This document shows positions 1 to 12,026 of a stretch of 13,499 nt of DNA, piece after piece. Where the stretch lies: NCBI GenBank assembly GCA_021731215.1, contig JAKFXU010000102.1, positions 1-13,499 on the forward strand, in the 5' to 3' direction. The notes under the pieces are model-generated. The model searched no databases. It was not told where the DNA came from and saw only the letters and a program-made list of their open reading frames with translations. How positions within the stretch are numbered: the first letter of the stretch is position 1; each line of letters opens with the position of its first letter. Made by a program: the position numbers and the translations under genes. Source of the stretch: Rhodoferax sp. (GTDB taxonomy: Bacteria > Pseudomonadota > Gammaproteobacteria > Burkholderiales > Burkholderiaceae_C).

Positions 1-3000
1 AAGGTGTCGCTGCGCGCGAAGAAGGCCTTGAACTGCTCGGCCAGCACCGGATTGAAGGTGATGGAGCGTGCCCAGCCAATGCCGGCGCCCAGCGTGTCAC
101 CGTAGCTGAAGCCGCCGCAGGCCACCACGCCCTGGAAATCGGCCAGCCTGGCTCTGCCTGCTTGCAGGTCGCTCATGTGCACGTCAAAGGCTTCAAAACC
201 GGCGGCAGTGAAGGCGTAGGCCATCTCGACATGCGAGTTGACGCCCTGCTCGCGCAGCACCGCCACTTTGGGGCGCGACAGCATCAGCGCGGGGCCAGGG
301 TGAGGGTTGAGCGCCGGCTCGAAACTCAGATGCTGGTGCAAACCGGGGTCCAAGGGGTCGCCCACGGCGGCGTGCTCCGCGTCGGCACCGGCCGGGTTGT
401 CGCGCTGCTGGCAGATCTTCCAGCTGGTGTTGTCCCAGACCTGCTGCAGGTCCTGCAGCTTGGCAGTGAACACGGCTTTGGCATCGCGCCAGACCTGGAC
501 CTCGCCGACACCGAGCGCCATGGCGGAGCCCGGCAAACGGGTTTTTCCGATGAAATGACTGTGTTTGCTCAGGCCGTGCTCGCGCAGGGTTTGCATGACG
601 TCATTGCGCTGCACTGTGCGCACCTGCAGCACCACGCCCAGCTCTTCGCTGAACAAGGCTTTGAGCGTGAGCTCCTCGCGCCGGACACTGACCTGGCCGG
701 CCCAGTTTTTGCTGTCGCCATGCTCGGCGCGGCTGTCGCTGATGCCGTCGCCCTCGGTGACCAGCAGGTCCACATTGAGCGCCACGCCGACCTGGCCGGC
801 GAACGCCATTTCGCAGACGGTGGCAAACAGGCCGCCGTCGCTGCGGTCGTGGTAGGCCAGAATCTGGCCCTGGGCGCGCATAGCGTTGACGGCCTTGACC
901 AGGTTCACCAGATCCTGCGGCTGGTCCAGATCGGGCACCTCGTCACCGAGCTGCCCCAGTGTTTGCGCCAGCATGCTGGCGCCCATGCGGTTCTGGCAGC
1001 GGCCCAGGTCAATCAGCAGCAGCGTGCTGTCCTCGGTCGCGTTGAGCTGCGGTGTCAGCGTGCCGCGCACATCGGCCAGTGTGGCGAAGGCGGTCACGAT
1101 CAGGGATACGGGCGAGGTCACTTTTTTGGCGCCCTGCCCGTCCTGCCACTGGGTGCGCATGGAGAGCGAATCCTTGCCCACCGGAATCGAAATCCCCAGC
1201 GCCGGGCACAGCTCCAGTCCCACCGCTTTCACGGTGGCATAGAGCGCGGCGTCTTCGCCCGGCTCGCCGCAGGCCGCCATCCAGTTGGCCGACAGTTTGA
1301 CGCGCGACAACTCGATCGGGGCCGCCAGCAAATTGGTGATCGCCTCCGCCACCGCCATGCGGCCAGACGCCGGCGCGTTGACGGTGGCCAGCGGCGTGCG
1401 CTCGCCCAGGCTCATGGCTTCACCGGCGAAACCCTTGAAGTCGGCCAGCGTCACGGCACAGTCGGCCACCGGCACCTGCCAGGGGCCCACCATCTGGTCG
1501 CGGTGGCTCAAACCGCCCACGCTGCGGTCGCCAATGGTGATGAGAAAGCGCTTGGACGCCACGGTCGGGCTGGCCAGCACGGCGATGCAGGCTTTCTGCA
1601 GATCGACGCCGGTCAGATCGACCGGCGCGAAGCTGCGCTGCACCGTGCTCACGTCGCGATGCATCTTGGGCGGCTTGCCCAGCAGCACGTTCATCGGCAT
1701 GTTGACCGGAGCCCCCACGCTTGTCGCTGCGCGTACTGCGCTGCCCCCCGAGGGGGCTGCGCTTGCTTCGGGCGGCCCGGCGCGGCGCGCGGCACCTTCA
1801 TCCGCCAGCACCAATTGACGTTCTTCGGTCGCCACGCCGACCACCGCAAACGGGCAGCGCTCGCGTTCGCACAGGGCCTGGAACAGCGCCAGCGACTCGG
1901 GCGCGATCGCCAGCACGTAGCGCTCCTGGCTTTCGTTGCACCAGATTTCCTTCGGTGCCATGCCGGACTCTTCCAGCGGCACGGCGCTCAGATCAAAGCG
2001 GGCACCGCGCCCGGCGTCGTTGCTCAGTTCGGGAAAGGCGTTGCTCAAGCCGCCCGCGCCGACGTCGTGGATCGCCAGAATGGGGTTGCCAGCGCCCTGA
2101 ATCCAGCACTGGTTGATGACCTCCTGCGCCCGGCGCTCCATCTCGGGGTTGCCGCGCTGGACCGAATCAAAGTCAAGTTCGGCCGCGTTGGCCCCGGTCG
2201 CCATCGAGCTGGCCGCGCTGCCGCCCATGCCAATGCGCATGCCGGGGCCGCCCAATTGAATCAGCAGGCTGCCAGCCGGAAACTCGATCTTGTGGGTCTG
2301 CGTGGCATCGATCACACCCAGGCCGCCGGCGATCATGATCGGTTTGTGGTAGCCGCGCTGCTCTTGCTTCGGCGCAGCCACTCCGGCCTTGTCGGTCACT
2401 GCGTAGCTCAGGCTCTGCTCGTATTCGCGGAAGTAACCCAGCAAATTGGGGCGCCCAAATTCATTATTGAACGCCGCACCGCCGAGCGGGCCTTCGACCA
2501 TGATCTGCAAGGGGCTGGCGATGTGCTCGGGTTTGCCGTAGCCCTGTGGCGCTGGATCAAAGCGCAGCGTGGACACGGTAAAGCCGGTCAACCCGGCCTT
2601 CGGTTTGGAGCCGCGCCCGGTGGCGCCTTCATCGCGAATCTCACCGCCGGCACCGGTGGCAGCACCCGGAAAAGGAGAGATGGCGGTCGGGTGGTTGTGG
2701 GTTTCCACCTTCATCAGAATATGGTTTATTTCGCTATGCTTTTCATAGCTTGCTGCGCTTATTCCATGTGGACCAGAGGCCGATTTGGCTACAAATCGTT
2801 CGACCCTCACACCTTCCATCACGGAGGCATTGTCCGAGTACGCCACCAGCATGTGCTGCGGGTTCGTCTGGTGCGTGTGGCGGATCATGCCAAACATGCT
2901 CTGGTCCTGCGCCACGCCGTCAATCGTGAAGCGGGCGTTGAAAATCTTGTGGCGGCAGTGCTCGCTGTTGGCCTGCGCAAACATCATCAGTTCCACATCG

Positions 3001-3632
3001 GTCGGGTTGCGCTGCAACTGGGTGAAGGCCTGTGCCAGGTAATCAATTTCGTCAGCTGCCAGCGCCAGTCCAAATTGGGTATTGGCCGTTTCCAGCGCCG
3101 CCTTGCCGCCGCCGAGCACGTCCACATGCGCCATCGGCATGGGTTGCAGCTCAGTGAACAGGCCGCTGGCGCTGGCGCGGTCAAACATCACGCTCTCGGT
3201 CATGCGGTCATGCAGCAGGGCGCCGATCTGCCCCAGTTGCAACTCCGACAGGCTGGCCTTCATGCCCAGCAATCCCGCTTTGAGGGTCAAACGATATTCA
3301 AGCACCCGCTCGACCCGGCGCACCGCGAGGCCGCAATTGTGGGCGATATCGGTTGCTTTGGAAGCCCAGGGCGACACCGTGCCCAAGCGCGGCGTGACCA
3401 CGATCAGGAGCCCGTCTGACGGACCGGCATAGGGCTCACCGTAGCTTAGCAAGGCCGTCAGTTGCTCTTTAAGGGCTGGCGGCGGCTCGCTATCAGACGT
3501 CACCAGATGCACAAACCGTGCGGCGACGCCGTTGATCTTGTCGTGCACGGCTTGCAGGCGCGGCAAAAGCTGCTGAATACGGAAACTGCTGAGAGCGCTG
3601 CCGCCCTCGAATTGGCTGATGTGCAGGGTCAC
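1..3632 (-). CDS. purL: Phosphoribosylformylglycinamidine (FGAM) synthase, large single-chain type; 3' end cut by window edge
   Basis: Catalyses the ATP- and glutamine-dependent conversion of FGAR to FGAM, step 4 of purine synthesis, in the cytoplasm. 1210 codons are visible and the frame stays open throughout. Landmarks: N-terminal domain with [16 protein letters not shown] (87-102); [19 protein letters not shown] (216-234); [14 protein letters not shown] starting at 308, followed by [55 protein letters not shown]; later [10 protein letters not shown] and [10 protein letters not shown]; then the start of the glutaminase domain ([25 protein letters not shown]). The coding sequence leaves the window a few residues before the expected GVCNGCQM nucleophile. 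The start is GTG at 3632 ([11 protein letters not shown]), where family N-termini begin; its ribosome binding site is weak. It lies 114 bp after the lipoprotein gene, on the same strand. Residues about 280-300 and 615-640 are encoded by repeat-like DNA (separate entries). Confidence 0.97.
1711..1790 (-). repeat. GC-rich repeat-like element inserted in frame in purL
   Basis: The plus strand has a hairpin: GCCCCC (1743-1748), a CGA loop and GGGGGC (1752-1757), extended after one T/T mismatch by GCGC on each side (1738-1741 and 1759-1762). It is followed by CTTGCTTCGGGCGGCCCGGC. From memory, this string is typical of a very common short repeat near gene ends in Comamonadaceae; I cannot search to confirm. 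In purL it encodes residues about 615-640, an Ala/Gly/Ser/Pro/Arg-rich stretch between [13 protein letters not shown] and [16 protein letters not shown]. coli PurL has about 12 residues between the equivalent anchors; this protein has about 35. The frame is kept on both sides. The boundaries given are approximate. Confidence 0.7.
2733..2795 (-). repeat. AT-richer repeat-like element inserted in frame in purL
   Basis: The plus strand starts with a perfect inverted repeat, GCTATG (2733-2738) and CATAGC (2744-2749), separated by CTTTT. It continues through TGCTGCGCTTATTCCATGTG and CCAGAGGCCGATTTGGCTAC to about 2795. The local base composition is clearly lower in GC than the surrounding purL sequence. 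From memory it matches a dispersed Comamonadaceae repeat with the core AGAGGCCGATTTGGCT; this needs a search. It encodes residues about 280-300 ([20 protein letters not shown] and the next Ser), between SVMEG and the conserved [14 protein letters not shown]. The stretch between those anchors is 29 residues here and 22 in E. coli, so it may replace a loop as well as lengthen it. Confidence 0.68.
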
Positions 3633-11945: not shown

Positions 11946-11983
11946 AAAAAAGCCTGCAGGTGGCGCCACCAGCAGGCTTTTTT
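11946..11983 (-). terminator. Strong bidirectional rho-independent terminator after ppa
   Basis: AAAAAAGCCTGC (11946-11957) pairs with GCAGGCTTTTTT (11972-11983). Inside, the perfect palindrome GGTGGCGCCACC (11959-11970) continues the stem after a single A/A mismatch. The A tract and T tract make it work in either direction. It lies about 53 bp after the ppa stop and about 110 bp before the cheW start, so it most likely ends ppa transcription. Confidence 0.85.
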
Positions 11984-12026
11984 AATAGCTGCGCACGCTC
12001 GTCCGATGCGCGCCAGCAACGCTGGC
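11984..12026. repeat. Small hairpins after ppa, possible decayed copy of the AT-richer repeat
   Basis: GCCAGC (12012-12017) and GCTGGC (12021-12026) form a perfect 6-bp hairpin with an AAC loop, 9 bp after the ppa stop. Beside it, AATAGCTGCGCACGCTCGTC (from 11984) resembles the start of the AT-richer repeat in purL (CATAGCTTGCTGCGCTTATT) if a 3-base gap is allowed. The match is short and gapped, so family membership is only suggested. Confidence 0.35.

Follow-up and report, generated by a model that had tools for sequence, protein, structure and literature searches.

The segment at 2733-2796 of the window (the whole stretch of DNA analyzed, 13,499 nucleotides from Rhodoferax sp.) is an in-frame copy, within purL, of a palindromic repeat of the Comamonadaceae of about 64 bp. 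Taken as a whole, the observations are best explained by an old in-frame insertion into purL followed by a hold on the copy at the DNA level in repeat-rich genomes, a reading that we consider likely. The repeat family was described with a covariance model, R1, built from an alignment of 48 copies outside purL; L029, one of the 49 candidate copies, was omitted before model building (low score). The features of the window that are used below are the following.

1..3632, minus strand: purL, phosphoribosylformylglycinamidine synthase (open frame; 1218 bits to Salmonella PurL 1t3t)
243..404, minus strand: linker before the glutaminase domain, the second repeat site of relatives, empty in the window (no R1 match)
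1707-1793, minus strand: GC-rich repeat-like insert, in frame, at about PurL residues 614-642
2682..2711, minus strand: conserved 10-residue PurL segment, 7 residues after the repeat (from the sequence)
2733..2749, no strand assigned: hairpin GCTATG-CTTTT-CATAGC, left end of the repeat (from the sequence; first stem of the family consensus)
2733..2796, plus strand (own orientation): copy of the dispersed palindromic repeat of about 64 bp (R1 cmsearch, 72.6 bits, E 1.2e-19)
11976..12016, plus strand: weak partial intergenic match to the repeat family (16.3 bits, E 0.0022 within the window)

A preliminary description of this DNA had noted a GCTATG/CATAGC hairpin, a core and a lower GC content, and all three are present: the stem halves are at 2733-2738 and 2744-2749, the core AGAGGCCGATTTGGCT is at 2775-2790 and the GC content of the repeat is 0.47. 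At third codon positions, GC is 0.33 in the element compared to 0.81 in the remainder of the 943-codon PurL reading. PurL is truncated by the window edge at base 1 and was numbered from an assumed GTG start codon at 3632. Translated on the minus strand, the repeat corresponds to about PurL residues 280-300, located between VERF and a 14-residue stretch; it has no stop in the PurL frame (residues 279-300 by this numbering), in agreement with the in-frame position first proposed. These residues had also been placed shortly before a conserved segment, and the gap is indeed 7 residues; the columns of this segment (308-318) are invariant in 49 PurL sequences. In the alignment with 1t3t, the PurL of the window is 7 residues longer than Salmonella PurL at the repeat loop. 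An AlphaFold model of the N-terminal 443 residues, with a poor pLDDT of about 57-66 around the loop, was left unused as evidence. The R1 match in purL is full-length, with all 64 positions covered by a model that was built without purL copies.

The own genome, G000, is a draft of 3.18 Mb in 507 contigs with a completeness of 84.7%. A plain BLAST search and an exact pattern returned a single copy and suggested that the purL segment was unique in this genome. This was overturned by R1, which gave 30 matches at E<=0.05 and 18 at E<=0.01 (17 with stricter filters). The purL copy has the best score of the genome (72.6 bits) and the other 17 matches at E<=0.01 are weaker, up to 46.6 bits. The partial match at 11976-12016, which lies between two minus-strand ORFs, is absent from the own-genome matches at E<=0.05. 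Across the genus, at least one R1 match at E<=0.01 was observed in 84 of the 89 Rhodoferax genomes and 50 or more matches in 51 of them; counts were recorded up to 59 per genome, the top counts meaning at least 59, and many of these genomes are drafts. Genomes with an R1 count of 50 or more are hereafter called repeat-rich, and those with 24 or fewer repeat-poor. The repeat was also found in Comamonadaceae other than Rhodoferax. Of the 299 family genomes, 56 contained the core pattern, compared to one occurrence each in 8 genomes for a reversed-pattern control, which places the repeat family beyond chance. The dispersed Comamonadaceae repeat that the preliminary description had suggested is borne out; an absence of further copies had been named there as the contrary outcome, and copies exist in both the own genome and the family.

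With the window DNA as the query, 18 of 60 genomes were matched, which corresponds to 18 of the 36 genus genomes and 0 of the 24 genomes of other families. Among 120 genomes from across the order, two had an R1 match at E<=1e-4, namely the own genome and another member of the family. The remaining 118 had no R1 match under stricter filters, with one same-family and 19 other-family genomes among the 20 of them listed. By PurL, Rhodoferax ferrireducens OTU1 is the closest relative with a name, and the genus is accordingly taken as Rhodoferax. No Rfam family matched the window or five loci carrying copies at the gathering score, and no published description of this repeat was recognised in the open-licence literature, in a search that covered few subscription journals.

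The anatomy of the repeat was analyzed on 80 top-scoring copies, picked from 10 genomes. Information content is above background from about -3 to 67 and at background beyond, and the ends in the 80-copy profile are about TTGCTAT and TATAAATT. Conserved islands (CT, AGCT, CGC, G.GC, AGAGGCC and ATTT) are separated by free positions, and in 29 family-wide copies obtained by a search with the right-hand core alone, the left 41 columns were far from uniform decay (chi2 211, df 40). The hairpin stems are written in the consensus, with compensatory changes and covariation not above those of shuffles. According to our simple codon-score gene call, 68 of the 80 picked copies lie between ORFs, many of them at most 20 bases from a gene end, and the preferential insertion into purL that had been envisaged is therefore not supported. 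The 12 other copies interrupt ORFs, nine having the same orientation as in purL; three of the 12 fall within the first ~50 residues and may precede the true start. Three of the six frames were open in 30-36% of the 80 copies and the remaining three in 0-11%; as shuffled letters gave 21-26%, the repeat is not strongly built to code. Dispersed copies have no codon-position pattern. GTAG-tagged REPs are associated with RAYT (Y1_Tnp) transposases. By our count, Y1_Tnp matches occur in 79 of the 89 genus genomes and are absent from 3 of the 51 repeat-rich genomes and 7 of the 38 others; they are nearly ubiquitous in the genus and did not separate the classes.

Copies inside ORFs were observed in MoeA (two genomes, one site), in a ThiL-like protein (two genomes, one site), and in a CCA-adding-type nucleotidyltransferase, a DUF3418 (HrpA-type) protein, a PD-(D/E)XK protein and a DNA methylase, where ThiL, CCA-adding and HrpA are names that we presume to be those of the host proteins. 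With the repeat in frame in moeA, a thiL-like gene and other genes, the comparison with protein-coding palindromes drawn at the outset proved apt. A Pfam test of 10 of the 12 in-ORF copies found families in 8 of the 10 ORFs, and in 7 of the 10 the matched Pfam region extends across the repeat. In the nucleotidyltransferase at locus L337 (G328), the repeat starts at TINSIA beside RRDL, and the native codons and the start of the repeat seem to overlap.

A MoeA match was obtained in 81 of the 89 genus genomes, MoeA paralogues included. We analyzed 50 moeA loci, the 30 best by likeness to the filled query and 20 mostly with a split, empty-looking match; two of the 50 were left unparsed by the motif search. 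Among the 48 parsed loci, 28 were filled (21 with an intact and 7 with a decayed copy), 2 partial and 18 empty, proportions that are not those of a sample since the loci were selected for both states; 31 of the 81 genomes with a MoeA match lie outside the set. The moeA of the own genome is an empty site. The MoeA segment measures 44-55 residues in filled loci versus 23 (14 loci) or 26 (4 loci) in empty ones, and filled moeA reads the repeat in the same frame as the purL loop at residues 280-300, hereafter site 1. The preliminary description had looked to purL for a target site and its duplication. These are not derivable there because the insertion is old and common to many species; clean empty sites were found in moeA instead, where filled and empty sites have diverged too far for an exact junction.

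R1 was run on both strands of 73 genus purL loci and of 80 loci from named records. All the matches at site 1 are antisense to purL, and 53 loci have a position-weight score of at least 30 (50 without three duplicate genomes), with an identical phase in all of them. Thirteen of the loci scoring at least 30 are outside the genus set, and the non-genus carriers at site 1 include Polaromonas, Acidovorax temperans, A. facilis, an Ottowia MAG and Ramlibacter. Since the site and the phase are common to many genera, these sequences point to an old insertion in purL and indicate that it is not recent. Equal-length PurL in all relatives had been proposed as an argument against an insertion. The loop is of equal length in most of the genus relatives read, so this part of the expectation stood; the argument drawn from it did not, because the insertion is apparently shared. 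Many of the non-intact Rhodoferax loops retain the length and parts of the peptide (for example GISTGSYQK in L088). The PurL loops of Hydrogenophaga, Limnohabitans and Salmonella are shorter and without the repeat; some Burkholderia-type PurL loops are as long, yet unrelated to it. A quick PurL tree was computed without the loop, leaving out L171 and the duplicate genomes L094-L096; the intact status changes 17 times on it (shuffled mean of 41), a number in which recoding is included along with any gain or loss. The contrast between close relatives can be abrupt, L078 being recoded and L087 and L090 intact. At L200 (G407), an in-frame TAA lies just upstream of the repeat, for which an assembly error or a broken gene is possible.

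An intact purL copy was observed in 32 of 36 repeat-rich genomes versus 4 of 34 repeat-poor genomes, the genus purL loci L200 and L205 being omitted from the score table. The presence of an intact purL copy also correlated with the number of first-look candidates per Mb (Spearman 0.76). Using phylogenetically independent pairs (starred branches), we obtained 6 pairs, of which 2-4 were concordant and 0 opposite, a result that is not significant (p 0.125-0.5). The own genome is an exception, with few copies and an intact purL copy, and is one of the four poor-but-intact genomes. Conversely, four repeat-rich genomes are without an intact purL copy, among them G380, where 57 copies were counted and the purL and moeA copies are both recoded; in G379, the purL copy is intact and the moeA copy decayed. 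Most repeat-poor genomes have a purL copy that is either recoded or so decayed that it escapes scoring.

Conservation at the synonymous sites of coding copies was expressed as kappa, a codon-usage-corrected synonymous identity. The raw 4-fold identity in Rhodoferax, alike in element (0.587) and flank (0.585), was replaced by this measure because the flanks are GC-rich at third positions. Classes by intact score, which are circular for a synonymous test, were replaced by the classes of genome R1 count. For the 35 repeat-rich genomes with aligned loops, the kappa of the purL element was 0.46-0.50 in every flank-divergence bin (overall 0.48), and that of the purL flank went from 0.35 down to 0.05. 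For 32 repeat-poor genomes, the kappa of the element ranged from -0.13 to 0.17, under that of the flanks (0.04-0.34). Species-resampled differences between element and flank (30 draws) were 0.19 to 0.34 in repeat-rich genomes and -0.28 to -0.06 in repeat-poor genomes. In moeA, the comparison covered the 25 repeat-rich of the 28 filled genomes, and kappa was 0.53-0.59 (overall 0.56) compared to 0.10-0.31 in the flank. The kappa of the element is nearly flat across divergence for both purL and moeA in repeat-rich genomes. At the level of single codons, 22 of the 23 intact genus copies with Ile at residue 291 use ATA for it, compared to 17 of 1624 Ile codons in the flanks, and the tyrosine at residue 296 is encoded by TAT in 35 of 36 such copies, compared to 205 of 697 Tyr codons in the flanks.

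When the 53 intact loci were compared to dispersed copies, the match to the consensus was slightly higher at codon positions 1 and 2 and lower at position 3, which is the mark of a protein; position 3 is nevertheless far from free. In nine genomes, similarity at codon positions 1 and 2 was 0.802 between purL copies, versus 0.695 between purL and dispersed copies of the same genome and 0.678 with those of other genomes; at codon position 3, the corresponding values were 0.679, 0.666 and 0.650. Overall, the similarity of purL copies to dispersed copies was 0.685 within a genome and 0.668 across genomes, an excess equalled in 3 of 500 permutations, and the same-genome excess at codon position 3 was reached in 9 of 500 permutations for these 9 genomes.

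From these data, we infer that the repeat entered a tolerant purL loop ahead of the divergence of the Rhodoferax species, and probably close to the root of the family; it was presumably kept because it has no stop codon in this frame and the loop is tolerant. Protein function would since have held codon positions 1 and 2 of the purL copy. In repeat-rich genomes, the synonymous sites of coding copies would also be held to the family motif, and in repeat-poor genomes the purL copy is usually recoded toward host codon usage. The synonymous retention is a pattern in the data, from which we infer the mechanism. The most likely holder would be a sequence-specific constraint that acts on the repeat as DNA or as RNA, with repeated overwriting less likely; a position-specific constraint is modestly favoured because the conserved islands and the nearly flat kappa fit it. 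Tentatively, it is possible that the repeat functions in a sequence-specific manner, through a trans-acting factor that reads it, or that homogenisation across the genome maintains it, such that an active system imposes a second nucleic-acid code on host enzymes and the loss of this system frees the coding copies to drift to ordinary codons.

A somewhat unlikely alternative is that dispersed copies convert or replace the purL copy repeatedly in repeat-rich genomes, which would leave it always young-looking. The near-flatness of synonymous identity with divergence in purL and moeA is compatible with such overwriting, as are the same-genome excess in similarity and the abrupt difference between L078 and its neighbours L087 and L090. 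However, this excess is small, and there is no uniform donor, since copies are 73% identical within one genome and 70.5% between genomes. In addition, the purL copies share purL-specific bases, although protein constraint may explain a good part of these, many being first or second codon positions. We regard as unlikely that the repeat inserted independently, lineage by lineage, at one preferred purL site instead of once in an ancestor. The 17 state changes between intact and non-intact on the PurL tree could be read in this way, together with a moeA site that is filled in some genomes and empty in others and the gathering of different repeats in several purL loops. Against it, many of the non-intact Rhodoferax loops keep their length and a recognisable peptide, which is more in line with decay than with absence, and the phase is identical in 53 of the 53 loci scoring at least 30.

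Simple vertical inheritance from one old insertion, with no process at the DNA level and the repeat-like spelling as a leftover of ancestry, would account for the site and phase common to many genera and for the uncorrected 4-fold identities, which are alike in element and flank. It is already disfavoured and appears quite improbable to us: once corrected for codon usage, the element is conserved in two genes where the flanks are near saturation, and the rare codon ATA persists. Finally, it is extremely improbable that the dispersed repeat was born from purL and not inserted into it. The purL copy being the best-scoring one of the own genome would agree with such an origin, but the shorter, repeat-free loops of Hydrogenophaga, Limnohabitans and Salmonella (and the long but unrelated loops of some Burkholderia-type PurL), the empty and filled moeA sites, where the repeat comes and goes outside purL, and the dispersed copies, with no codon-position pattern, all argue against it.

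The linker before the glutaminase domain is a second site of the same repeat in relatives: 15 of 90 parsed linkers score at least 28, with one phase throughout that differs from that of site 1, so that another frame is translated. The linker of the window is short and without the repeat. Other repeat-like peptides were observed in the linkers of L118, L119, L177, L178, L180, L204, L208, L210, L211 and L213 (for example VIPAQAGIHGG..DSRLRGNDG, RAEPVEA..STSSGRTG and VIASEARQSM..), and from these peptides several repeat families appear to use the linker in frame. A purL loop near residue 362 has long in-frame inserts (NWGQIPIN.., VIARSEATRQS..) in the genus members L190, L204 and L208-L213. The GC-rich insert at 1707-1793 is longer than the loop of most parsed relatives, L067 having a related-looking insert there, and may be the published BRE of about 90 bp. 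With the repeat at two purL sites and other inserts in at least two more loops, the suggestion that purL loops tolerate such elements is supported.

Rickettsia and Wolbachia are the best-known carriers of palindromic repeats that are translated. The present repeat is a separate family, in free-living bacteria, that is in frame in several core enzymes. Because dozens of species present its sites in a filled, partial, decayed or empty state, insertion, retention and loss are traceable by comparison. The synonymous sites of its coding copies can further be used to ask if repeats of this kind are inert or actively constrained, for which intergenic copies, having no internal clock, are poorly suited. 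If a trans-acting or homogenising system does exist, purL and moeA would be recorders of its presence.

RPE, the Rickettsia palindromic elements, were reportedly described by Ogata et al. in 2000/2002. The hosts of the present repeat differ from theirs in being free-living betaproteobacteria; three frames are in use, and the synonymous sites of the coding copies are family-like. RPE measure 105-146 bp, form a long stem-loop and are bounded by 12-bp terminal inverted repeats (PMC2229807). Like them, the present repeat is a short palindromic element that is both intergenic and in frame in unrelated conserved genes; unlike them, it is about 64 bp long, with short internal stems only and no 12-bp terminal inverted repeats (PMC2229807). 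As described there, bacterial MITEs (NEMIS, ERIC, RUP) are also small, non-autonomous and dispersed, with some copies fused in frame, and the present repeat differs from them by having no terminal inverted repeats at its ends (PMC2229807). BRE (beta-proteobacterial repeat elements, published by Hot et al.) are about 90 bp long with 69% GC in Bordetella, have some copies inside coding sequences and are spread in Bordetella and in Comamonadaceae including Rhodoferax and Polaromonas (PMC3110155). The present repeat is likewise dispersed in Comamonadaceae with some copies within coding sequences; identity with BRE is unlikely as judged by length and composition (64 bp and 47% GC here; PMC3110155). 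Some GTAG/CGTC-tagged REPs are in frame in ORFs, with recB of two Xanthomonas species carrying one at about the same site, and Rhodoferax, Polaromonas, Acidovorax, Delftia and Comamonas are absent from the main text of that paper (PMC3733652). The present repeat resembles these tagged REPs as a small palindrome with some copies in frame, and differs from them in that no conserved GTAG or CGTC occurs at either end in 80 copies (PMC3733652). The repeat works like RPE and intragenic REPs but, because length and ends differ, we file it as neither.
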